A stretch of DNA of 21,027 nucleotides from a virus: IMG/VR virus record IMGVR_UViG_3300049846_000332, positions 1-21,027 of that record, one strand, 5' to 3'. The notes beneath the pieces were generated by a model that searched no databases, was not told where the DNA came from, and saw only the letters and a program-made list of their open reading frames with translations. The position numbers and the translations under genes are program-made. Every line of letters starts with the position of its first letter. The first letter of the stretch is position 1. Below, piece after piece: positions 558 through 14,729 of this stretch.

Positions 558-675
558 CGAAGAGTGTAGGGAAATCTGGGAGAGTGGGGCGAAGGTTGTT
601 GTGGACTCGGAAGAGGGTAAGCAGGTGATAGCTTGGCTACACAGGGATGTCCAGAGGGTTTCGCATGGAAATTAA
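541..675 (+). CDS. Small hypothetical protein between the terminase genes
   Basis: A 44-residue acidic protein starting at GTG and opening LLTDEECREIWESGAKVV. I do not recognise a family with certainty. Small proteins with a similar 'LTDEE...EIW' opening occur in other phage genomes, but I cannot name a function. The frame is open further upstream to 490, but GTG at 541 follows a strong Shine-Dalgarno sequence (528-534) and is the best start. It overlaps the upstream gene by 17 bases and the large terminase by 11 bases, an arrangement that suggests translational coupling across the three genes. Short length keeps confidence moderate. Confidence 0.5.
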   Translation: MRLLTDEECREIWESGAKVVVDSEEGKQVIAWLHRDVQRVSHGN

Positions 676-2044
676 GCCTCAACCAGGAAAGCAGGAGGAG
701 TTTCTTAGCTCAGAGGCCGATGTGGTTATATATGGGGGGAGTGCTGGATCTGGTAAAAGTTGGTGTATGTTACTAGACCCACTGAGGTATGTAAATGTGC
801 CCGGGTTTTACGCTGTGTTATTTAGGCGTACTTATCCAGAGATAAAGAATCCAGGGGGTTTGTGGGATGAGAGTTGGAAAATATATCCATATACAAACGC
901 AGATGCCAAGGTGGGGGATTATACTTGGGAGTGGCAGACTGGTGGGGTAGAGGGTAGTAAGTTGAAAATGAGCCACATGGAGCATACTAAGGATAAGTAT
1001 AGCTGGCAGGGTTCTCAGATTGCATGGATTGGGTTTGACGAGGTTACGCATTTTGATAGGGATGCGGTGTTGTATATGTTCTCGCGGAATAGGAGTATGT
1101 GCGGGGTTAAGCCGAAGATAAGAATGACGTGTAACCCAGATTCGGAATCATGGGTGCGGGGGATGATAGATTGGTGGATAGATGCGGATACGGGATTGGC
1201 CATAGAGGAAAGATGTAAGCAGATTCGTTGGTTTACTATTGAGAATGATAAGTTTGTTTGGAGCGATATTCCGAAGGATGGGTATAAGAGTTTCCAATTC
1301 ATAGCGGCGAAGCTGACTGATAATCAGAAATTGATGGAGGCTGACCCAGGGTATATTAATAATTTAAAAGCGTTGCCATTGGTTGAGCGTGAGCGGTTGT
1401 TGGGGGGTAACTGGAATATCTCGAATAAAGGCGGGATAATAAAACAAGAATGGTTACAGAAAACATACGAGGGGACTAAGCCTTATCTTCAGATACTACA
1501 ATCGTGGGATACGGCATTTAAGGCGGCTGAGATTAATGACCCATCGAGCTGTACTACGTGGGGAGTGCATAGGGGGGGGATTGATCTGCTTGATGTGATT
1601 AATGAAAGATTAGAGTATCCGTTACTGAAGCAAAGGATAGTGCAACATGCGAAAGATTGGAAGCCCGATGTTGTACTTATTGAGGATAAGGCTTCGGGGC
1701 AATCGCTAATACAGGAATTACGTAGCCAGACCAAGATTCCGATTAAAGCCATCATGCCAACGGCGGATAAAATCACCCGCGCTTCTGTGTGTAGTTTGAT
1801 GTTTGAAAACGGAAAAGTGCATTTACCAGCGGAATTCAAGAATTGGAAAACAGACTATACTTCGCAATTACTTGCGTTTCCAAATGGAAAGCATGACGAT
1901 ATGGTTGATAGTACATCACAAGCGTTATCATATTATATGCACTTAGATATAGACGAAATGTTAGAAAGAAATATTTATGAGCTTGCAGAAGAGGAATTTT
2001 TAGATTATACTGCACCACAAGGTAATATGGTTACAGGATATTAG
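665..2044 (+). CDS. terL: Terminase large subunit (packaging ATPase and nuclease)
   Basis: The DNA-packaging motor: it hydrolyses ATP to push DNA through the portal and cuts concatemers to genome length. With the start at 665 it has 459 residues, normal for the family. The Walker A loop GGSAGSGKS is at 24-32, the Walker B strand IAWIGFDE at 119-126, and a coupling-type motif TCNPD at 155-159. The RNase H-like nuclease supplies its acidic residues from SWDT (D282), LIEDKASG (E340/D341) and HDDMVD (D411, D412, D415). An in-frame ATG at 647 would add six residues; I prefer 665 because the protein then opens MEIKPQPGKQ, as relatives usually do, and AGAGGG lies just upstream. The stop abuts the portal ATG. 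Codon use changes inside the gene: 17 of 28 Gly codons are GGG up to about base 1700, then none of four. Confidence 0.95.
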   Translation: MEIKPQPGKQEEFLSSEADVVIYGGSAGSGKSWCMLLDPLRYVNVPGFYAVLFRRTYPEIKNPGGLWDESWKIYPYTNADAKVGDYTWEWQTGGVEGSKLKMSHMEHTKDKYSWQGSQIAWIGFDEVTHFDRDAVLYMFSRNRSMCGVKPKIRMTCNPDSESWVRGMIDWWIDADTGLAIEERCKQIRWFTIENDKFVWSDIPKDGYKSFQFIAAKLTDNQKLMEADPGYINNLKALPLVERERLLGGNWNISNKGGIIKQEWLQKTYEGTKPYLQILQSWDTAFKAAEINDPSSCTTWGVHRGGIDLLDVINERLEYPLLKQRIVQHAKDWKPDVVLIEDKASGQSLIQELRSQTKIPIKAIMPTADKITRASVCSLMFENGKVHLPAEFKNWKTDYTSQLLAFPNGKHDDMVDSTSQALSYYMHLDIDEMLERNIYELAEEEFLDYTAPQGNMVTGY

Positions 2045-4093
2045 ATGATACCCCAAATAAATCTCCCATTTAAAGATATACTCGCAACAGATAACGTGGC
2101 AGAGCTTCTGGATAAGACAGACTTAGCTGGCATAGGTCAGCACTGCTTTAGGATGTATGAAAGGGATTTGACAAGTAATGCGGAACACTTCGAGCTTCTC
2201 GATAAGATTGATGAGATGCTAAAGCCTAGAACACAAGCGAAATCGTATCCGTATGAGGGGTCGAGTAACGTAAATATTCCATTGATACAAAATGCCGCAA
2301 TAGCTTTCGCAAGTAGGGCTTACGGGATTTTATTTAAAGATGATACTATAGTATATGGCAAGGTGAATGGCTCGGATGAGGGGTTGTTTGATATTACGAA
2401 GTTGGATGAGCAGGGCAAACCAAAAGTTATTGAGGCCGCTGGCGGGAAGAAAAAGAAAGCTGCGCGGATAGCGGGCTTTATGTCGTATCAGCTTTTGTGC
2501 GAAGATAAAAACTGGCAGGAAGATACAGACAAACTTCTTATACAATATCCTGCTTATGGGGAAATGTATCGTAAAAGATATTATGATAAATTCGAGAAAC
2601 GTCAGCGCAGTAGAATCATACACCCAAAAAATTTAATTATAAATAATGAAGCTCGTGCTTTCGATGGTTCGAGGAAAACAGAAATAGATTCTTTATATCC
2701 TTGGGAAATACACGAAAGAATCATGAATAATTTCTACGTAGATTTTGAGTATAAAGATGACGGCACGAATGAGCCGCATGAAATATTAGAGCAGCATACT
2801 CGCTTAGATTTGGATGGCGATGGATACGCAGAGCCGTATATCGTAACACTACATAGTGAAACAAAATTACCGACTAGAATTGTAAAGGCATTTGATGAAG
2901 ATGACGTTACTCGTAAGAACGGAAAAGTGTTGTATATCGAAGAAGATAATTATTATACACAATATATTTTCATCCCAGATATTAGAGGCGGAATTCACGG
3001 AATAGGATTCGGCTACCTTCTTCTTAACTTAAACCAGAACATCAACACATCCATGAATCAACTAAATGATGCTGGTAGATTAAGCAATACTCCTGCCATA
3101 CTAGCGGGTAGGGGTATTCGTATGAAGGGCGGAAAAACACCTGTTACTCCAGGTAAGATGCTATTCGTTGATTCCGATGGTAAAGCGTTGCGTGATAATA
3201 TTTATGAAATACGATTCCCTGAACCAAGTGCTACGTTATATAACTTAGCGCAATTCCTAATTGGATATGCGAAAGAGTTGGGTGGCGTGAGGGATGCGCT
3301 TTCAGGCGAACTACGTAGCGATCTTCCTGCTAATACTGCCTTGGCGATGATAGAGCAGGGTATGAATGAATTCAAATCTATCTTCAAAAGATTATATCGG
3401 GCGATGAGTAAAGAGTACAAAATTCTGTACGACTTAAATGCGGAATATTTAGATGAGGGTGTTTACTTTGAGTATGGTGATAATGAAGGTTACGTTGCGA
3501 GAAAAGATTTTGTTGATGATGATATAGATGTAATGCCCGTTGCGGATTTCAGTGCGCTTACAAGTATTGAAAAACAATACAAGGCACAAAGATACATGGA
3601 GCTTGCAGAGAAACAGTTGATAGCCCCACAATACGCAGCGAAGAAAAACCTTGAAGCTCTTGGCTGTGATGATGAAGAAGAGGCGTTGGATTTCCAACCT
3701 ACGAATCAGGAATTGGATATTCAGAAAGCGGCGTTAGATGTTGAGCGTGAAAAAACTCAACAGAAAATGCTTGACCAAATTAATAAAATGAGAGAGATAG
3801 ATATTAAAGAGAAAAAACTTCCTGCAGAAGTAATGGAGATGGTGGCTACAGCTATTCAGAAAACAGCGGATGCGGAAAGTAAAGAAGAAGGAAGTCAACT
3901 GCAATTTTACGATAGATTCGTAGAGGAAATGAAAGGGCAGTGGGCTGATTATGAAACGAAGAAGGAGATGACAGATGTCGAAGAAGGAGAAGGAGAGGAA
4001 TCAGGAGAGTCTGACGAAGGAGCAACTGGAGTTCCTGAAGTCAACGGAAGCGTTCAAGGCTTACCGCAGGTTCCTACAGGACTTTCGCAATAG
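2045..4093 (+). CDS. Portal protein
   Basis: Forms the dodecameric ring at one capsid vertex through which DNA enters and leaves, and on which the terminase and later the gp4-like adaptor dock. At 682 residues it is similar in size to the P22 portal (about 725). Recognisable features are the segment TRLDLDGDGYAEPYIVTLH near residues 250-270, common in podovirus portals, and a long helical region around residues 430-470 that probably lines the channel. A charged helix at about 560-640 precedes an acidic, Gly/Ser/Pro-rich tail (about 645-682) that is likely disordered. The gene starts on the base after the terminase stop without a clear Shine-Dalgarno sequence, suggesting translational coupling. 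Its last 119 bases also encode the start of the next gene in another frame. Confidence 0.93.
   Translation: MIPQINLPFKDILATDNVAELLDKTDLAGIGQHCFRMYERDLTSNAEHFELLDKIDEMLKPRTQAKSYPYEGSSNVNIPLIQNAAIAFASRAYGILFKDDTIVYGKVNGSDEGLFDITKLDEQGKPKVIEAAGGKKKKAARIAGFMSYQLLCEDKNWQEDTDKLLIQYPAYGEMYRKRYYDKFEKRQRSRIIHPKNLIINNEARAFDGSRKTEIDSLYPWEIHERIMNNFYVDFEYKDDGTNEPHEILEQHTRLDLDGDGYAEPYIVTLHSETKLPTRIVKAFDEDDVTRKNGKVLYIEEDNYYTQYIFIPDIRGGIHGIGFGYLLLNLNQNINTSMNQLNDAGRLSNTPAILAGRGIRMKGGKTPVTPGKMLFVDSDGKALRDNIYEIRFPEPSATLYNLAQFLIGYAKELGGVRDALSGELRSDLPANTALAMIEQGMNEFKSIFKRLYRAMSKEYKILYDLNAEYLDEGVYFEYGDNEGYVARKDFVDDDIDVMPVADFSALTSIEKQYKAQRYMELAEKQLIAPQYAAKKNLEALGCDDEEEALDFQPTNQELDIQKAALDVEREKTQQKMLDQINKMREIDIKEKKLPAEVMEMVATAIQKTADAESKEEGSQLQFYDRFVEEMKGQWADYETKKEMTDVEEGEGEESGESDEGATGVPEVNGSVQGLPQVPTGLSQ
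3962..3967 (+). promoter_or_regulatory. Shine-Dalgarno site inside the portal gene
   Basis: AAGGAG ends seven bases before the ATG at 3975. It shows that the next gene starts well inside the portal coding sequence, and that the 119-base overlap is not merely an over-called start. Confidence 0.6.
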
Positions 4094-4286
4094 AACCTTA
4101 GAAAGGTTAGGTGCGGCAGAATATCTAACTGAAGATTCATTCAGTACACTAAACAACTACGCAAATGTTTTGGGAAAAATTGAAGGACTTGATCTCGCAA
4201 GCGAGCTTGAGTATGAAATCGTGCGTGAGTTTTATAGAGGAATTACTAACATAGAGGAAAGCGAAGATGGCGAAAGTACAATTTAA
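3975..4286 (+). CDS. Small helical protein of unknown function, head module
   Basis: A 103-residue, highly charged, apparently all-helical protein (for example EQLEFLKSTEAFKAYRRF) with no signal peptide, membrane segment or catalytic motif. I do not recognise the family. It begins inside the portal gene with a textbook ribosome-binding site and ends 20 bases inside the co-chaperonin gene, so it is embedded in the capsid-assembly operon and probably made together with portal and co-chaperonin. A role in head assembly is inferred from position only. The first 39 residues are encoded by bases that also encode the acidic portal tail. An internal start after the overlap is less likely because no comparable Shine-Dalgarno sequence is seen there. 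Confidence 0.75.
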   Translation: MSKKEKERNQESLTKEQLEFLKSTEAFKAYRRFLQDFRNRTLERLGAAEYLTEDSFSTLNNYANVLGKIEGLDLASELEYEIVREFYRGITNIEESEDGESTI

Positions 4287-4602
4287 TCCTGATGAGTGGG
4301 AGCTATTAAATAATTGGGTATTAGTAGAAGTAGAGAAGGTAGAGGAAAAAACAGCAGGTGGAATATACCTAGCTGACGCATCAAGAGAACGTGAACAACA
4401 TGGTCGTATCTACGGCAAGTTATTAAAAATGTCTGAAGGGGCTTACCCTTATCCAGAGTTTCCAAGAAAACCAGAATTAAATACTATAGTAAGTTTTGAC
4501 CGTCATGCAGGAAAATATGCGGATGATGATGGTATATACAGGTTCTTATCTGACATGGATATAATTGCATTTAAACCAACCAAGGAGAATACTAATGGCT
4601 GA
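4267..4602 (+). CDS. GroES-like (cpn10) co-chaperonin
   Basis: A 111-residue protein that matches GroES in layout. An opening strand WVLVEVEKVEEK (residues 17-28) precedes the mobile-loop segment TAGGIYLADAS (29-39), corresponding to the GroES loop SAGGIVLTGS whose hydrophobic triplet (IVL; here I33-Y34-L35) contacts GroEL. HGRIYGKLLKM then parallels RGEVLAVGNG, and the end SDMDIIAFKP parallels SESDILAIVEA. Length equals that of T4 gp31, the phage co-chaperonin that replaces GroES during coat folding. Between the loop and the C-terminus, this protein carries an extra segment rich in Pro and aromatic residues (about 52-75). Placement between portal, scaffold and coat genes supports a role with host GroEL in folding the capsid protein. 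The host partner and strict need for it are inference. It overlaps its neighbours by 20 and 8 bases. Confidence 0.88.
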   Translation: MAKVQFNPDEWELLNNWVLVEVEKVEEKTAGGIYLADASREREQHGRIYGKLLKMSEGAYPYPEFPRKPELNTIVSFDRHAGKYADDDGIYRFLSDMDIIAFKPTKENTNG

Positions 4603-5557
4603 CCTACAAAAGCTTTCTAATGATTTAATGACGGGGGAGGCCGCACCAGCGCAAGAGGCGGAAGCTACGCAGGCGGTTGAGCAGACGGAATATGCTGGTA
4701 AGGATCTTACGCAGATGTCTATTGACGAAAAAAAAGCTTACGCAATAGACCAGGGCTGGAAACCAAAAGATCAGTGGAAGGGTGATACATCTAAGTGGAC
4801 TGATTTCGATGAGTTCGCAGATAGGCACAGTAATATATATATACGTTTGGAAAAAGCGGAGAAAGCAAATGAGAAAACAAGCGAAATGCTTGCACGTCAG
4901 GCTGAGTTGCACAAAAAAACACTAGAAAGGCAGGAAGCTAGGTACAAAAAAGAACTAGCTGATAAGCTTGCAGAGCTAAACGCACAGAAAAAACAGGCTA
5001 AAGATGATTTAGACGTAGATAAAGTAGAGCGTTTAACGGAAGAAGTAAGGCAAACTGAGCAGGAAATCAAGGATATTGACACTGCTCCGAAAGAAGATAC
5101 GCAGCGTATGATACAAGAAACTCAGCGTATTTTGAACGATTGGCAGTTAAAAAATCCTTGGTATGGCAAGGATTTGACGCTTACAGCAGAAGCGGATAGA
5201 ATTGCGCCGTATATCGGGAAAATGCACCCAGATCTAACTCCACAAGAGCGCTTGAAAATGGTGGAAGATGAGGTTAAACGTAGATACCCAGATGATTTTA
5301 GAAATAAAAATCAAGATAGGCAACCAGTTGATTATGGTGGAGAAAGAAATGCTGCTGCACCACGTCAGACATACAAAAAATTCGGTGTGAATGATTTAGA
5401 ACCTACTGATAGAATGTTGTTCGAAAGGTATAAAAAGAATAGCTGGGGCATACCTAAAAAGCAGCAGACACCAGAGCGTTTGAAGGAATCAGAAGATAAA
5501 TTTTTCGAGGACTTAAGAGAAATTTACGAGGCTGACAAAAGAAAGAATAAAAATTAA
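4595..5557 (+). CDS. Scaffold-like head assembly protein
   Basis: A 320-residue, very hydrophilic protein immediately before the coat region, the usual place for a scaffold that guides procapsid assembly and is then released or cleaved. The N-terminal 45 residues are Ala/Glu/Gln-rich and probably disordered. GWKPKDQWKGDTSKWTDFDE (about 54-73) is a pattern typical of phage scaffold-type proteins. A long coiled coil runs over about residues 80-165, rich in Lys, Glu, Gln and Leu. The C-terminus is Lys-rich, as expected for coat-binding scaffolds. The start was set at 4595 (AAGGAG at 4582-4587, seven bases upstream) rather than an in-frame ATG at 4565, which has no ribosome-binding site and lies deep in the co-chaperonin gene. 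No protease motif is visible. Confidence 0.8.
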   Translation: MADLQKLSNDLMTGEAAPAQEAEATQAVEQTEYAGKDLTQMSIDEKKAYAIDQGWKPKDQWKGDTSKWTDFDEFADRHSNIYIRLEKAEKANEKTSEMLARQAELHKKTLERQEARYKKELADKLAELNAQKKQAKDDLDVDKVERLTEEVRQTEQEIKDIDTAPKEDTQRMIQETQRILNDWQLKNPWYGKDLTLTAEADRIAPYIGKMHPDLTPQERLKMVEDEVKRRYPDDFRNKNQDRQPVDYGGERNAAAPRQTYKKFGVNDLEPTDRMLFERYKKNSWGIPKKQQTPERLKESEDKFFEDLREIYEADKRKNKN

Positions 5558-5598: not shown

Positions 5599-6060
5599 AT
5601 GGTAAAAGACCAGATTGATAAGACCGAAGCCGCTACTGAAACAGAAAGAAAAAGAAGAAAAGTAAGAGCGGGTAGTACAAGCGAAGTAAAACTAAAATCC
5701 GATTATTTTAATCCGTATATAACTGATGACAGTTATGAATATAGGTTAGTAAATGATGAGGATGAATATCGTGTCAGCACCCTTGAGGATAATGATTGGG
5801 ATAAAGTAACTGACGGTAAGAATAAAGTAGTTCGACAAGCTTGCGGTACTTTAAAAGATGGTCGTACACAGCATCGTATCTTAATGCGTAAACGCAAAGA
5901 GTGGTATGATGCAGACCAGAAAGAAAAACTAGCTCCGTTAGATGAAATGGAAAAGGAGCTTCTCCGAGGACAAGGCAAAGAAGGCTTTGGCAATAACAAG
6001 GTGGAAGCTGACAAATTTTACATTCCAAAAGATTCTAAGAATCGAGTAGAGCATAAGTAA
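5599..6060 (+). CDS. Conserved-looking phage head-region protein, unknown function
   Basis: A 153-residue charged protein. The core contains YEYRLVNDEDEYRVSTLE, then DWDKV, a run ending RQACGTLKDGR, and LMRKRKEWYDADQKEK, followed by an acidic helix and a short C-terminal stretch ending in Pro-Lys motifs. I have a sense of similar small proteins between scaffold and coat genes in other podovirus-like genomes, but cannot name a function. It may be a minor scaffold or capsid-associated factor. GGAGAGG at 5588-5594 sits just before the ATG. No membrane segment or enzyme motif is seen. Confidence 0.78.
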   Translation: MVKDQIDKTEAATETERKRRKVRAGSTSEVKLKSDYFNPYITDDSYEYRLVNDEDEYRVSTLEDNDWDKVTDGKNKVVRQACGTLKDGRTQHRILMRKRKEWYDADQKEKLAPLDEMEKELLRGQGKEGFGNNKVEADKFYIPKDSKNRVEHK

Positions 6061-6115: not shown

Positions 6116-6682
6116 ATGCCAAATACTAACATTCCAGGTGTAGATATAGTCCAATACGAGGGCAGAAAACCACAATTACGTACTTACGTAGTTCCGACTT
6201 CTGATTCCACAGCTATTGGTCTTGGAGCTTTTGTAAAATACACAGGCTCAACAACTACCTACTCTGGCGATCTACAATTCTATCCTATCGTTGCGAAAGC
6301 TGGATCTGCTGATACCATTTGCGGTATCGTAGTTGGTGTTCTGCCTGTAACAGGTGATTCACTAACATATAGAGCAGCATCTACTGAACGTCTAGTTACT
6401 GTTGACGTTGATCCAGATGTTCGCTTTGCGATTCCTATGAGTGGCGCCCTAGTTGCTGCTGACATTGGTAACAACGCTAATATCGTTGATGCTACTACAG
6501 TAAATGGACTAGGTATACAGCAAGAAGCTCTACTAACTTCATCTATCAATACAACCTCTACACTTCAAGTAAGAATTGAGGCTGTTGAACAACGTAATGA
6601 TAATGCTGCTGTAGATTCTTACACACGCGTAGTTTGCAAAATCAACAGACACTTCTTTGCTGATAATACAGCAGGTGTATAA
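6116..6682 (+). CDS. Probable capsid-associated or decoration protein
   Basis: A 188-residue, beta-rich protein of low charge placed directly before the major capsid gene. The central pattern RLVTVDVDPDVRFAIPM, then a small Ala/Asn-rich stretch, VNGLGIQQEALLTSS, TLQVRIEAVEQRNDNA and a closing VCKINRHFF is like that of structural proteins paired with coat proteins in many environmental tailed phages. It may bind the outside of the capsid or stabilise it. AAGGAGG at 6102-6108, seven bases before ATG, is the strongest ribosome-binding site in the window, consistent with a protein needed in many copies. Codon use resembles the coat gene and not the terminase genes. The exact role is inference. 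Confidence 0.72.
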   Translation: MPNTNIPGVDIVQYEGRKPQLRTYVVPTSDSTAIGLGAFVKYTGSTTTYSGDLQFYPIVAKAGSADTICGIVVGVLPVTGDSLTYRAASTERLVTVDVDPDVRFAIPMSGALVAADIGNNANIVDATTVNGLGIQQEALLTSSINTTSTLQVRIEAVEQRNDNAAVDSYTRVVCKINRHFFADNTAGV

Positions 6683-6702: not shown

Positions 6703-7623
6703 ATGGTAGCAAATTCAATTATAACTACTGGTAGTTTTCCTAAGGCGTTACGCCCTGGGTTAGCTTCCATTTTCGGAAATGTCTATGACGAGAAAACTGC
6801 GGTTTGGTCACAGATATTTAAGACTGAAGCGTCAACAAAAAGCTATGAAGAAGATTTAGAAGCTTCTAGTTTTGGTTTGGCGGTACTAAAACAACAAGGC
6901 AATTCGGTAACTTTCGATGCCGATATGCAAGGTGACGTGATTCGTACAGTTCACGCTGTAATGGGTCTTGGCTTCATCATCACGGAGGAAGAAATTGACG
7001 ACAATCAATACGCTCAACTTTCTGAACGCCGTACTGAAAACCTTGGCTGGTCTATGCGTCAAACTAAAGAGATAATTGCGAACAACATCCTTAACAGGGC
7101 GTTTGATTCCTCTTATACCTTTGGTGTGAACAACCCGAAAGAACTATGCTCTACTTCGCATACAACTTTCGTTGGTTCACAATCAAACAAACTAAATCCT
7201 GCGGCTGACCTTTCACAAGCGTCACTACAAGATATGGTTACTATGGTTTACAACGCTAAAAACAACCGTGGCCTACGTATCAATCTAAAAGCAGAACGCT
7301 TGATTGTTCCGAATGAATTAATTTGGACAGCTCAAGAAGTTTGCAATTCAGTTCTTCAACCAGGTGGTGCGAATAACAATATCAACTCCATTTACACAAT
7401 GGGTGTGATACCTGAGATTCTGCAAGATACTTACCTGACTGATACTGATGCTTGGTTCCTACAAACCAACGCTCCTCGTGGTGCAATCCATTACTCTCGT
7501 AAACCAATAGCGTTTAGCGATGACAATGATTTCGCTACAAACAACATGAACTTTAAAGCAACTGAAAGGTATAGCTTCACTGTTCCTGATTGGAGAGCGA
7601 TGTACGGTTCTACAGGCGCTTAG
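6703..7623 (+). CDS. Major capsid protein (HK97-fold type)
   Basis: A 306-residue protein in the coat position after the scaffold. The segment SFGLAVLKQQGNSVTFDADM, then VHAVMGLGFIITEEEIDDNQ and ERRTENLGWSMRQTKEIIAN fit the N-arm/E-loop and spine-helix part of HK97-like coat proteins. The P-domain region includes RGLRINLKAERLIVPNEL and IYTMGVIPEI, and WFLQTNAPRGAIHYSRKPI is typical of the A-domain end. No protease-cleaved N-terminal delta domain is obvious, in keeping with a separate scaffold. GGAG at 6692-6695 lies seven bases before ATG. Codon choice looks optimised: 10 of 13 Arg codons are CGT or CGC, and GGG is nearly absent among Gly codons. A hairpin follows the stop. Confidence 0.9.
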   Translation: MVANSIITTGSFPKALRPGLASIFGNVYDEKTAVWSQIFKTEASTKSYEEDLEASSFGLAVLKQQGNSVTFDADMQGDVIRTVHAVMGLGFIITEEEIDDNQYAQLSERRTENLGWSMRQTKEIIANNILNRAFDSSYTFGVNNPKELCSTSHTTFVGSQSNKLNPAADLSQASLQDMVTMVYNAKNNRGLRINLKAERLIVPNELIWTAQEVCNSVLQPGGANNNINSIYTMGVIPEILQDTYLTDTDAWFLQTNAPRGAIHYSRKPIAFSDDNDFATNNMNFKATERYSFTVPDWRAMYGSTGA

Positions 7624-10686: not shown

Positions 10687-10839
10687 ATGGATAAAAAAAT
10701 CACTATGCCTACACTAGACCAGATTAATGCTTCCAAGATAGGTATACACAGAGTAGTGTCTACACAGGGCGTAAAAGGTATTGTTGCAAAACGTAATGAT
10801 GGCGATGGCAAAAAAGATAAAAACGATGGCGCGAGATAG
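10687..10839 (+). CDS. Small basic hypothetical protein
   Basis: A 50-residue ORF with a strong ribosome-binding site (AAAGGAG at 10674-10680, six bases before ATG). It opens MDKKITMPTLDQINASKIG and ends in a Lys/Asp/Gly-rich tail (RNDGDGKKDKNDGAR). The tail-encoding bases contain A6 (10810-10815) and A5 (10819-10823) runs and overlap the next ORF, in another frame. No family recognised. See the finding on a possible frameshift with the next ORF. Confidence 0.5.
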   Translation: MDKKITMPTLDQINASKIGIHRVVSTQGVKGIVAKRNDGDGKKDKNDGAR

Positions 10840-10966
10840 TGACATTGTATTTAAAGTGGGTAGCGGTGTAAACGGCAAGCAACCTGTTGATAATAACAAA
10901 CGGATTGTTCCAGTTTATCCTCCATTACCTCATAAGGGCGTAGTAAAAACTAATTTAGGAAAGTAA
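10826..10966 (+). CDS. Small hypothetical protein, start uncertain
   Basis: A 46-residue ORF from ATG 10826: MARDSDIVFKVGSGVNGKQP, a Pro-rich part (VPVYPPLPHKG) and a basic end. It overlaps the preceding ORF by 14 bases with no good Shine-Dalgarno sequence. Alternative in-frame starts are ATG 10805 and TTG 10781, the latter preceded by AAAAGG; with TTG 10781 it would have 61 residues. It could also be the second half of a frameshifted fusion with the preceding ORF. It ends one base before the adaptor gene, whose start it may help to couple. Function unknown. Confidence 0.5.
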   Translation: MARDSDIVFKVGSGVNGKQPVDNNKRIVPVYPPLPHKGVVKTNLGK

Positions 10967-10967
10967 A

Positions 10968-11945
10968 ATGGCAGTTTCAGGATCATACAATTTCGATATG
11001 AATCGTGACCAGATAGTAAAGGCCGCACTTAGAAAGCTGCGTGTTACAAACCAATTTGACGACCCTACGGAAAGAGAGATAGAAGAAGGTGCCGAGGCAC
11101 TTAATCTTCTCGTTAAAACTTGGCAGACGCAAGGCATCCATCTTTGGAAATACGAAGAAATAGTAGTGTTCCTTGCAGAAAATCAAAATTTATATACACT
11201 TTCACCTACAGGTGATAACGCTTGTTTAGATAGTGATTTGGTGCAGACTGCTTTAGCCGCTGATGCTGCTGCGGCAGCTACATCTATTACAGTTGATGAT
11301 ACCACGGGCATGTTAGTTAGTGATTACATCGGAATACAACTTGACGATGGTTCAATGCAGTGGACAACTATTGCAACACTTCCTGGATCTAACGTCATAA
11401 CTTTAGGCGCAGCATTAACTGGCGCTGCTACAACTGATAACGGCATTTATTCTTATACAACTAAAATCCAAAAACCAATGCGTGTGAATGGCGCTCGCAG
11501 AAGGTTAGGCTCTACAGCTTCTAGTATTACTGGCGTTGTAGATGTACCCGCTAAAATTTTAGCGAGAAGGGATTACATGGATTTATCAATTAAAAATTCT
11601 ACAGGTTCTAGTACACAAATACACTATAATCCAAAAATCAACGGTGGAAATTTATTCGTCTGGCAGGAAACTGGAAACGTAATGGACACGCTGCGTTTAA
11701 CAGTTGAATACCCGATACAAGATTTTGATGATTCTTCTAACAATCCAGATTTTCCGATTGAGTGGTATGAAGCTATCGTATTTGGTTTGGCTGTGCGTTT
11801 AGCACCTGAATATGGTGTTACGGGTCAGCAACTACAGGATTTAATGATGTTAGCTTCTCAGTTCTTAGATGCAGCTAAAGGCTTTGACCAAGAGTATGAT
11901 TACGTACAGTTCGTTCCAGATTATGACGGCAACTACAACGCTTAG
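10968..11945 (+). CDS. P22 gp4-like head-to-tail adaptor (tail accessory factor)
   Basis: Binds the portal after packaging and forms the first ring of the tail. The N-terminal pattern is diagnostic: RDQIVKAALRKLRVTNQF (about 13-30), then ALNLLVKTWQTQGIHLW (44-60), and a helical end including IEWYEAIVFGLAVRLAPEYG that resumes the fold. At 325 residues it is about twice the length of P22 gp4 (166). The excess is largely a beta-rich insertion around residues 92-166, with TSITVDDTTGMLVSDYIGIQ and LDDGSMQWTTIATLPG. Similar inserts occur in gp4-like proteins of other phages as I recall them. The gene is followed after two bases by the gp10-like gene, matching the P22 order. Confidence 0.82.
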   Translation: MAVSGSYNFDMNRDQIVKAALRKLRVTNQFDDPTEREIEEGAEALNLLVKTWQTQGIHLWKYEEIVVFLAENQNLYTLSPTGDNACLDSDLVQTALAADAAAAATSITVDDTTGMLVSDYIGIQLDDGSMQWTTIATLPGSNVITLGAALTGAATTDNGIYSYTTKIQKPMRVNGARRRLGSTASSITGVVDVPAKILARRDYMDLSIKNSTGSSTQIHYNPKINGGNLFVWQETGNVMDTLRLTVEYPIQDFDDSSNNPDFPIEWYEAIVFGLAVRLAPEYGVTGQQLQDLMMLASQFLDAAKGFDQEYDYVQFVPDYDGNYNA

Positions 11946-11947
11946 AG

Positions 11948-13387
11948 ATGCAAAAGAAAAAAACAAAGATACCAAGTCAGAGTTACCAGAATAGGAGCTT
12001 GCCTGTTAGTGCGGAACGCTTGGTAAATATGTATTTTGAAAAAGCTTCCCCTACTTCTAAATCAGAATTTGTTATTCATGGCTCATGTGGCCTGAAAGCA
12101 TTTACTGATTTAGGTACAAATGCTCCCGTATATGGTATTCATGCTTTTGGGAATTATGTCTACGCAGTAAGCGACAACAAAGTTTACAAAGTAGACTCGC
12201 TTGGTGGCTCTACGTTGATTGGCTCTTTATCTGCGGGGACATATAATAATGTTCAAATAGTAGATAATGGCGTTGATGTTGTAGTTCTAAATAACCAGAC
12301 TGGTGTAGCGCATATAGTTACAGAAACTACAGTCACAGAAATTACGAATCCAGATTTTAAAAGTGCTTCTAGTGTGACATATCTTGATGGATATTTAATT
12401 TTTTCAGAAGCGGGAACTTCGCAGTTTTTCATATCAGGACTAAGGGACTCGAATAGTTATAACGCCCTTGACTTTGCAACCGCAGAAGCAAGTCCCGATA
12501 ATATTGTTAGGGTATTCGCAGGATACAAATTACTTTATTTATTTGGAGAAACTTCTACAGAAATTTGGTGGGATTCTGGTAATGCAGATTTCCCTTTTGA
12601 AACATATCAGTCAGGCGCTTTCCAGCGTGGTTGTGGCGCTGTATTAAGTGTGGGACAAATAAACAATATTATTACTTGGTTGGGTGAAGATGGTTTTGTT
12701 TATGCTATCCAAGCTGATTCCTCTGCATCCCCAATTAAAATATCTTCTCACGCCATGGATGACGCGATAAGAAAATATTCTACTATTAGTGATGCTGTAG
12801 CGCAAACGTATTCGAAAGATGGACATTATTTCTATGAACTCACTTTCCCTACTGCCGATGCTACTTGGTGTTGTGATGTGGCTGTGGCTCTCGAATCTCC
12901 TGATTACGGTGCTTGGCATGAGTTGAAATCTTACGGTATGGGTAGACATAGAACTAATGACTGTACATTTGCTTTTGGTAAGTTTATTACCTGCGATTTC
13001 GAAAATGGTAAATTGTATGAGTTAGATTTAGATACTTACACAGATAATGGTGACACCATTGAACGTATTGGCGTAATTCCGCCTATTTTTAATGATAAGA
13101 ACCCTATATTCTTAGATAGGTTGGAGTTTGACTTCGAGCCTGGCGTTGGCTTAAATTCAGGTCAGGGAATTAATCCGTTGGTTAGCCTAAGGCGCTCGGT
13201 AGATGGCGGTATCAACTGGGGCAATAGGTTATATGCGGAGATGGGTAGAATGGGTGAGCGCAGAAAGGTAACGGCCTTCAGGAAATGCGGTACAGCAAAT
13301 AATATGACATATGAGTTTACGATAACCGACCCCGTGAAGGTAAGTTTAGCGGGTATATACGCGATAGTTAGCGGAGGTGAAAGCTAG
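11948..13387 (+). CDS. P22 gp10-like packaged-DNA stabilisation (tail hub) protein
   Basis: A 479-residue protein, nearly the size of P22 gp10 (472), placed after the gp4-like adaptor as in P22. The N-terminus SQSYQNRSLPVSAERLVNMY is the typical opening of this family, in which Asn-Met-Tyr is well conserved. The body is a beta-propeller-like series of strands: YGIHAFGNYVYAVSDNKVYK, YLDGYLIFSEAGTSQFFISG, LLYLFGETSTEIWWDSG and WLGEDGFVYAIQ. The C-terminal region has LRRSVDGGINWGNRLYAEMG. The protein seals the portal channel and forms the hub on which spikes or fibres sit. No good Shine-Dalgarno sequence precedes its ATG, two bases after the upstream stop, so it is likely coupled. Confidence 0.9.
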   Translation: MQKKKTKIPSQSYQNRSLPVSAERLVNMYFEKASPTSKSEFVIHGSCGLKAFTDLGTNAPVYGIHAFGNYVYAVSDNKVYKVDSLGGSTLIGSLSAGTYNNVQIVDNGVDVVVLNNQTGVAHIVTETTVTEITNPDFKSASSVTYLDGYLIFSEAGTSQFFISGLRDSNSYNALDFATAEASPDNIVRVFAGYKLLYLFGETSTEIWWDSGNADFPFETYQSGAFQRGCGAVLSVGQINNIITWLGEDGFVYAIQADSSASPIKISSHAMDDAIRKYSTISDAVAQTYSKDGHYFYELTFPTADATWCCDVAVALESPDYGAWHELKSYGMGRHRTNDCTFAFGKFITCDFENGKLYELDLDTYTDNGDTIERIGVIPPIFNDKNPIFLDRLEFDFEPGVGLNSGQGINPLVSLRRSVDGGINWGNRLYAEMGRMGERRKVTAFRKCGTANNMTYEFTITDPVKVSLAGIYAIVSGGES

Positions 13388-13687: not shown

Positions 13688-14143
13688 ATGCTAAAAGTAG
13701 AAAGAGAGAGTTTCGAGGGAAACTTAGATGACCTGAAAGCCTTTTTTCCCTTACAGTGGAAGGAAACTATCTATCCAGATGGAAAAGAACAGCTAAACCC
13801 AAACTTAGAAGCCTACATAGAAGTAGAGAAGAATGACTCATTAATTTTCCTTTCTTTAAGAAGTGAGGAAAAGTTAATCGGTTATTTTTTAGGCGTTAAA
13901 TATCAATATCCGCATAGTAAAGATGAGTATTATATTTTACAGGATTCGATATTTATCCATCCCGACTATCGTGGAATTGGTGGCGGAGTAAAGCTTATAA
14001 AGAAAGCGGAAGAAGTAGCGAAAGAGCTAAGAGTATCGAGAATACTTTTATGTTCAAGGTCGCACAACGATATTACTAAGTTATTTGAGAGGCTGAATTA
14101 TAGCCTTTCGGAAGTTTATTACTCTAAATATATAGGTAATTAA
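13688..14143 (+). CDS. GNAT-family N-acetyltransferase
   Basis: A 151-residue protein with the acetyl-CoA-binding core of the GNAT fold. ILQDSIFIHPDYRGIGGGVK (83-102) gives the beta4 strand and the pyrophosphate loop R-G-x-G-x-G (95-100), followed by the alpha3 helix LIKKAEEVAKEL. RVSRILLCSRSHNDITKLFE gives beta5 and the helix after it, and LNYSLSEVYYSKYI the C-terminal beta segment. Members transfer acetyl groups to amines of proteins or small molecules; the substrate here is unknown. It lies between neck and ejection genes, in the place of gp14 in P22. It could modify virion proteins, modify host targets after injection, or be a passenger. The N-terminal ~50 residues are not recognised. Spacing of 23 bases upstream and 1 base downstream shows it is part of the operon. 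Confidence 0.85.
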   Translation: MLKVERESFEGNLDDLKAFFPLQWKETIYPDGKEQLNPNLEAYIEVEKNDSLIFLSLRSEEKLIGYFLGVKYQYPHSKDEYYILQDSIFIHPDYRGIGGGVKLIKKAEEVAKELRVSRILLCSRSHNDITKLFERLNYSLSEVYYSKYIGN

Positions 14144-14144
14144 T

Positions 14145-14729
14145 ATGGGCGGAATTGTAGGCGGAATAACAGGCGCTATTGGCGGAATGAAAGCTTCCAA
14201 GCAGCAGCAACGTGGTATAGCTGCGGGTATGGAGCAATTACGTACTGGTGCTGCTGGCACTGAGGAAAGGCTTGGAAATACTAAGGATATAACCCCTGAT
14301 GCGATGGGGATATTGCAATCTTTAATAAATGGTGATTTTTCTAAGTTTCAAGAAAGCCCTGGGTATCAATTCGCTAAAGATGAAGCATTACAAATGGCAG
14401 AAAGAAGTGCCGCTGCTAGAGGTGGTTTAGTTTCGGGTCGTACATTAAAAGAACTGGAAAGATATGGTTCTGGTATGGCTTCCCAAGAATATGGTAATTA
14501 CTTTAATCAGGTGGGAGGTTTAGCAAAGCTGGCCTCCCCTTATTACTCTACTTATGCAAGTATGCCTTGGGATTTGGCACAAGGACTATCTGCGGGTGAA
14601 AACGCGATGGGTAAAGCTAAATCTACTGGTACTATGGCGAGATATGGCGGGATTGGTAGTGCTTTAGATAGTGTAGGTGATTTTGCATCTGGCGGAACAA
14701 GTTCAATGTTTGGGTATAAATTATGGTAG
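14145..14729 (+). CDS. P22 gp7-like DNA ejection (internal virion) protein
   Basis: A 194-residue protein carried inside the head and released into the host envelope with the DNA. The N-terminus is an Ile/Gly-rich hydrophobic segment (MGGIVGGITGAIGGMKASKQ). The central block is very typical of phage DNA-transfer proteins: FQESPGYQFAKDEALQMAER (69-88), then SAAARGGLVSGRTLKELERY (88-107) and GSGMASQEYGNYFNQ (108-122). The C-terminus is Gly/Ser/Tyr-rich. The stop of the acetyltransferase gene is one base away, and the last seven bases overlap the next ejection gene. P22 gp7 is made as a precursor with its N-terminus removed; whether that happens here cannot be seen. Confidence 0.85.
   Translation: MGGIVGGITGAIGGMKASKQQQRGIAAGMEQLRTGAAGTEERLGNTKDITPDAMGILQSLINGDFSKFQESPGYQFAKDEALQMAERSAAARGGLVSGRTLKELERYGSGMASQEYGNYFNQVGGLAKLASPYYSTYASMPWDLAQGLSAGENAMGKAKSTGTMARYGGIGSALDSVGDFASGGTSSMFGYKLW

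Follow-up and report, generated by a model that had tools for sequence, protein, structure and literature searches.

A GroES-family co-chaperonin gene linked to one coat-protein family in the head module of a phage lineage

The window analysed here, a 21-kb IMG/VR record (IMGVR_UViG_3300049846_000332, 21,027 nucleotides), encodes a real phage co-chaperonin of the Cpn10/GroES family, and the gene is ordinary within its lineage. It lies directly before the scaffold-like gene, and in relatives it is linked to one family of coat protein. We consider it probable that the product is a dedicated phage co-chaperonin, a lid for host GroEL that would most likely serve the folding of the coat protein; gene context and the precedent of T4 carry part of this reading.

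The gene runs from ATG to TGA at 4267–4602 on the plus strand and encodes 111 amino acids, and the opposite strand across this interval is rich in stop codons. The protein matched Pfam Cpn10 (PF00166) with 29.6 bits, above the gathering cut-off of 21.1, and PHROG 3188 ('co-chaperonin GroES') with 5.5e-8. A search of the PDB with the window protein alone matched Cpn10 chains, and a profile that included its relatives matched Cpn10 chains with E values as low as 9e-26. A weak PDB match to the Sf14 'phage protein' (9c39/9mt4, E 0.13) was absent with the profile and was dropped. The protein falls below the NCBIfam equivalog cut-offs (approximately 100 bits or more), and it is thus a member of the Cpn10 family but no orthologous bacterial GroES. 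The AlphaFold model, made with an alignment of 52 relatives, has a pLDDT of 79 and a pTM of 0.69. When this model was compared with known structures by Foldseek and VIA-align, the top rows contained only Cpn10 proteins, T4 gp31 among them, with a best Z of up to 9.0 over 94 residues (rmsd 3.4). Family matches and model together confirm a Cpn10/GroES-family protein with a predicted Cpn10 β-barrel fold, as the original prediction of a GroES-like co-chaperonin within the head cluster had proposed. The GroES-like C-terminus described there was also recovered, the final strand SDMDIIAF pairing with the GroES end SESDILAI. A chance or spurious open reading frame is ruled out by the family match, the model and the conservation.

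The features of the window on which the argument draws are as follows.

647–2044 (+): terminase large subunit (Pfam Terminase_6N/6C, phrog_979)
2045–4093 (+): portal protein (phrog_1216, 4e-14; weak P22_portal match; 18 phage records)
3975–4286 (+): small open reading frame between portal and GroES; small open reading frames precede GroES in relatives too
4267–4602 (+): phage co-chaperonin, Cpn10/GroES family, 111 aa (PF00166, phrog_3188, AlphaFold model)
4351–4371 (+): putative GroEL-binding mobile-loop core, residues 29–35, T-A-G-G-I-Y-L (conservation in relatives)
4372–4413 (+): arm after the mobile loop, residues 36–49, host GroES plus 4 residues (spacing counts, model)
4432–4485 (+): roof loop, residues 56–73, SEGAYPYPEFPRKPELNT (roof aromatics in relatives)
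4582–4597 (+): ribosome-binding site AAGGAG (4582–4587) and ATG (4595–4597) of the scaffold-like gene, within the 3′ end of GroES (read from the sequence)
4595–5557 (+): scaffold-like protein (position, composition, family alignment, presence in the block across loci)
5599–6060 (+): conserved block gene X (equal position in relatives)
6116–6682 (+): conserved block gene Y, possibly a capsid accessory protein (phrog_37556, synteny)
6703–7623 (+): major capsid protein, 306 aa, Phage_capsid_4/Mu gpT type (PF25209, 1.6e-12; phrog_371; 21 phage records)
10968–11945: P22-like tail adaptor
11948–13387: P22-like tail gene, gp10-like
14145–14729: P22-like, gp7-like gene

The gene therefore occupies the predicted position between the portal and scaffold genes, with the small open reading frame intervening. 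This small frame overlaps the portal gene as well as GroES. The overlaps of the GroES gene are 20 nt with the small upstream frame and 8 nt with the scaffold-like gene, and the AAGGAG stands 7 nt ahead of the scaffold-like ATG. Overlaps with both neighbours and the internal AAGGAG suggest one translationally coupled late operon, and coupling of GroES and the scaffold-like gene is likely from this arrangement. The coat protein is assigned by its profile matches to the Phage_capsid_4/Mu gpT type. Outside this block, the frame at 123–557 is a putative small terminase by position, but it matched no family, and a search of the phage collection gave no relative. A GNAT acetyltransferase gene (13688–14143) is flanked by tail and ejection-protein genes, and a GNAT gene is also present in the tail region of QDWS535 (L004, 12778–13206) and CRP-902 (L005, 30529–30963).

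Searches of phage records found 21 by coat protein and 18 by portal. GroES precedes scaffold, X, Y and coat in the annotated regions of all 13 records inspected (12 plus MW202785), which include the SAR11 phages HTVC023P/027P, Roseobacter phages CRP-901/902, Caulobacter phage RW, Planktothrix phage Pag-Yong1, Alcaligenes phage QDWS535 and Manatee Spring phages. Scans of viral contigs with the single GroES or coat sequence of the window gave no close relative; the coat alignment, scanned against viral and cellular contigs, added 160 further loci. Linkage was counted only in loci where 3.5 kb or more of sequence precedes the coat gene. A same-strand GroES lies upstream of the coat in 116 of these 120 loci (viral contigs 41/41, genome contigs 61/63, phage records 13/15, plus the window), and the pairing with the same coat family that the original prediction had proposed looking for is thus found in other genomes. 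GroES lies upstream at median distances of 2.06–2.12 kb in the different groups, and the usual order is GroES, scaffold-like gene, X, Y and coat, with the scaffold-like gene directly 3′ of the co-chaperonin apart from rare insertions. Insertions sit mostly between portal and GroES, so GroES usually moves with the capsid block. The reverse test, starting from GroES, found the coat downstream in 41 of 41 contigs with room, all within the subclade nearest the query.

Two apparent counterexamples were rejected as broken or chimeric: L132, a contig in which gene Y runs into bacterial genes, and L158, which has an N-run inside the scaffold gene. Around 8116–8217 of L158, a Dehalococcoidia 'chromosome', bacterial genes (atpI-like) give way to phage genes across this N-run; the junction is likely a misassembly or masking. 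In the remaining exceptions, vir526 and MW202601, Cpn10 is found elsewhere in the genome, and the coats are just 25% identical to that of the window. The module is also present in long contigs of isolate genomes (L099, Phenylobacterium deserti; L101, Sphingomonas sp. MA1305; L104, S. melonis; L155, Salinisphaera hydrothermalis). These are likely prophages and could possibly serve as laboratory systems.

As controls, we took 12 phages picked by similarity of tail (11) or terminase (1) and without this coat family, although one of them gave a marginal match to it. Cpn10 is present in 15/15 annotated records with the coat family, versus 3/12 controls with another coat (Fisher-type calculation, approximately 5e-5, on records that are not independent). 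In two of the three positive controls, PBR31 and DSL-LC05, GroES lies just upstream of the terminase or portal, so head-module co-chaperonins are not unique to this coat. These other-coat genes are found at 4392–4715 in Xanthomonas phage PBR31 (L297) and at 10731–10979 in DSL-LC05 (L298). The expectation that such a phage would not carry a co-chaperonin was therefore not borne out: the gene is lineage-wide, it is a published core gene, and these two controls have one too. No GroEL homologue was found in the 15 phage records, nor in the 21-kb window, where absence counts for little because the record is a genome fragment. With no GroEL of the phage's own, the partner would have to be host GroEL.

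The predicted mobile-loop pattern is intact in the window protein (K28-T29-A30-G31-G32-I33-Y34-L35, KTAGGIYL). Among 193 distinct relatives, 184 are hydrophobic at both the I33 and L35 positions, and 187 keep G32. A degenerate loop that lacks the GG-I core is seen in QDWS535 (L004, 3531–3872), L018 (4967–5296) and L160; these co-chaperonins possibly differ in their GroEL interaction or in their role. The arm that follows the loop is extended. The spacing from G32 to G50 is 18 in 182 of the 193 phage sequences, and the equivalent spacing is 14 in E. coli and host GroES, a figure counted directly on the sequences because E. coli was misaligned in this region by the automatic method. Residues 37–45 of the window protein form a helix in the AlphaFold model. 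The Pro/aromatic segment noted by the original prediction at residues 52–75 is indeed present and represents the roof loop (56–73); as a feature specific to this phage it did not hold up, being aromatic in most of the 193 relatives. A roof stretch of approximately 16–18 residues is retained in the phage family, 189 of the 193 sequences have Y, F or W at position 60, and most phage sequences have four roof aromatics, with none in the aligned stretch of E. coli GroES. The roof of the window protein is a variant of its own subclade. Natural variants with a short roof loop and no aromatic motif are present in L003 (6666–7001) and L042 (2972–3304).

A lid of the GroES or gp31 type caps GroEL through its mobile loops. 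We propose that seven copies of the window protein would form a GroES-like lid, whose GGIxL loops would bind host GroEL, and that late in infection the phage lid would replace host GroES on a fraction of the GroEL present. It would then most likely fold, or keep competent for assembly, a product of its own operon, chiefly the abundant coat and possibly the scaffold-like protein. Translation just before scaffold, X, Y and coat would supply the lid at the right time, and the +4 arm and the aromatic roof may tune the chamber. The fixed place before scaffold and coat, the linkage to the coat family and the precedent of T4 point to coat folding. With 306 residues and approximately 33 kDa, the coat fits an ordinary GroEL–GroES chamber, and a special need is not obvious, which counts against a dedicated lid, as do the degenerate loops of QDWS535, L018 and L160 and distance correlations that do not single out the coat as client. 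The original prediction had suggested that the coat or an adjacent protein needs an altered folding chamber. Given this small coat, chamber size is an unlikely reason for the phage lid, and tuned lid chemistry or an extra supply of lids is more likely than extra volume. The stronger proposal of an essential, coat-specific lid that acts on the 33 kDa coat by the chemistry of the chamber, with its aromatic roof and longer arms, and not by extra volume is one we hold only tentatively, and on balance we doubt it.

One explanation considered for the phage copy was a host without its own GroES. Each of the 14 host or MAG genomes searched gave a Cpn10 match, and 12 of the 14 host genomes contain both a canonical GroES and a prophage-type copy. 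In these 12 the phage copy is no substitute for a missing host gene, and this explanation is ruled out for them. The host-like copy appears frameshifted or poorly assembled in the Parvibaculum MAG L139, and the phage-type copy alone was found in SAG L137, an incomplete genome. That a host groES was captured recently and is carried as a passenger is scarcely credible: groES genes are common in hosts, but a tree of 80 sequences splits 12/12 host from 68/68 phage sequences (support 0.83), and the gene is lineage-wide and under strong purifying selection (median dN/dS 0.056 over 36 close pairs). We regard as unlikely, but far less so, a general supply or takeover, in which the lid boosts or redirects host GroEL for many phage proteins without a special tie to the coat and owes its site in the head operon to strong expression. 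Distances between GroES sequences correlate with those of portal (r 0.85), scaffold (0.80) and coat (0.77), and the partial correlation of GroES and coat given portal is 0.04. Coat-specific co-evolution thus finds no support by distance correlation beyond the module as a whole; GroES tracks portal and scaffold at least as well as coat, and vertical co-inheritance of the whole module gives an equal picture. A general supply agrees with this co-inheritance with the packaging and head module rather than the coat alone, with the location of cpn10, which in vir526 and MW202601 is not part of the head block and in PBR31 precedes the terminase, and with the ability of gp31 to serve all GroES clients (PMC3012670). 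It does not account for the fixed site directly before scaffold and coat in approximately 116 loci, though insertions are tolerated elsewhere, or for the lack of Cpn10 in most control phages with another coat.

The Cpn10 fold could also have lost its GroEL function and taken on a structural or assembly role, as a decoration, a portal-proximal ring or a scaffold partner. The place of the gene among structural genes and the loss of the GGI core in a few members (QDWS535, L018, L160) would fit such a role, but it leaves unexplained the hydrophobic mobile-loop residues conserved across the family, and we judge it very improbable.

We prefer the reading of a dedicated phage lid that would work with host GroEL and most likely serve to fold the coat. 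T4's own lid is usually explained by the bigger chamber needed for a coat of 56 kDa. Here, a probable dedicated lid stands beside a small coat, and in hosts with their own GroES, across phages of SAR11, Roseobacter, Caulobacter and cyanobacteria and prophages of Alphaproteobacteria. Such a small-coat lineage makes the question of chemistry versus volume testable in cultured phage–host pairs. If true, a chemistry-based, coat-specific lid would be a second solution of a different kind from T4 gp31, kept across a large aquatic phage lineage. The analysis also suggests that, in aquatic viromes, many 'GroES' genes serve capsid assembly and are not auxiliary metabolic genes. GroES is one of the 13 core genes of HTVC023P-type phages (PMC9599517), it is labelled in the genome map of CRP-901 (PMC10149686), and a siphovirus GroES was reported by the authors of B8b (PMC4294664). 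Our literature search, which covered few subscription journals, found no paper that ties GroES to this coat family, describes the arm or roof, or tests the function.

The window shares with HTVC023P-like capsid modules a homologous coat, the order GroES–scaffold–X–Y–coat and a GroES without a phage GroEL. The HTVC023P-type pelagiphages and CRP-901-type roseophages, alike in coat family and order, differ from it in their larger genomes of 52–61 kb and in an N-terminal extension before the Cpn10 domain. In pelagiphage GroES the W-C roof motif is complete (about GPLAYKDKEKFPDGPWCK), and the window protein has only part of it. The closest relatives of the module are Caudoviricetes ct2G2228 (MW202785) and the Alphaproteobacteria prophages of Hyphomicrobium (L097), Phenylobacterium deserti (L099) and Sphingomonas (L101/L104). 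Their coats are 42–47% identical to that of the window and their GroES proteins about 29–36% where aligned, in the same order; they are distinct species, and some have insertions between GroES and scaffold (L104). With bacterial GroES, the window protein has the Cpn10 fold and the mobile loop in common, whereas the phage family has four more residues after the loop, an aromatic roof and a separate clade. T4 gp31 and RB49 CocO are, like the window protein, phage-encoded lids of Cpn10 fold with a mobile-loop region longer than that of GroES (PMC6318259). The window model matches the gp31 structures 2cgt and 1g31 with Z of 8.0 and 7.6, at 6–9% identity in structure-based alignments. T4 gp23 requires gp31, and GroES is no replacement; lid-specific preferences among T-even phages hint at subtler causes than chamber size (PMC3012670). 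T4 gp31 has no roof loops and enlarges the chamber for the 56 kDa coat (PMC6318259), whereas the family described here serves, in our reading, a coat of approximately 33 kDa and has kept its roof, which is aromatic.
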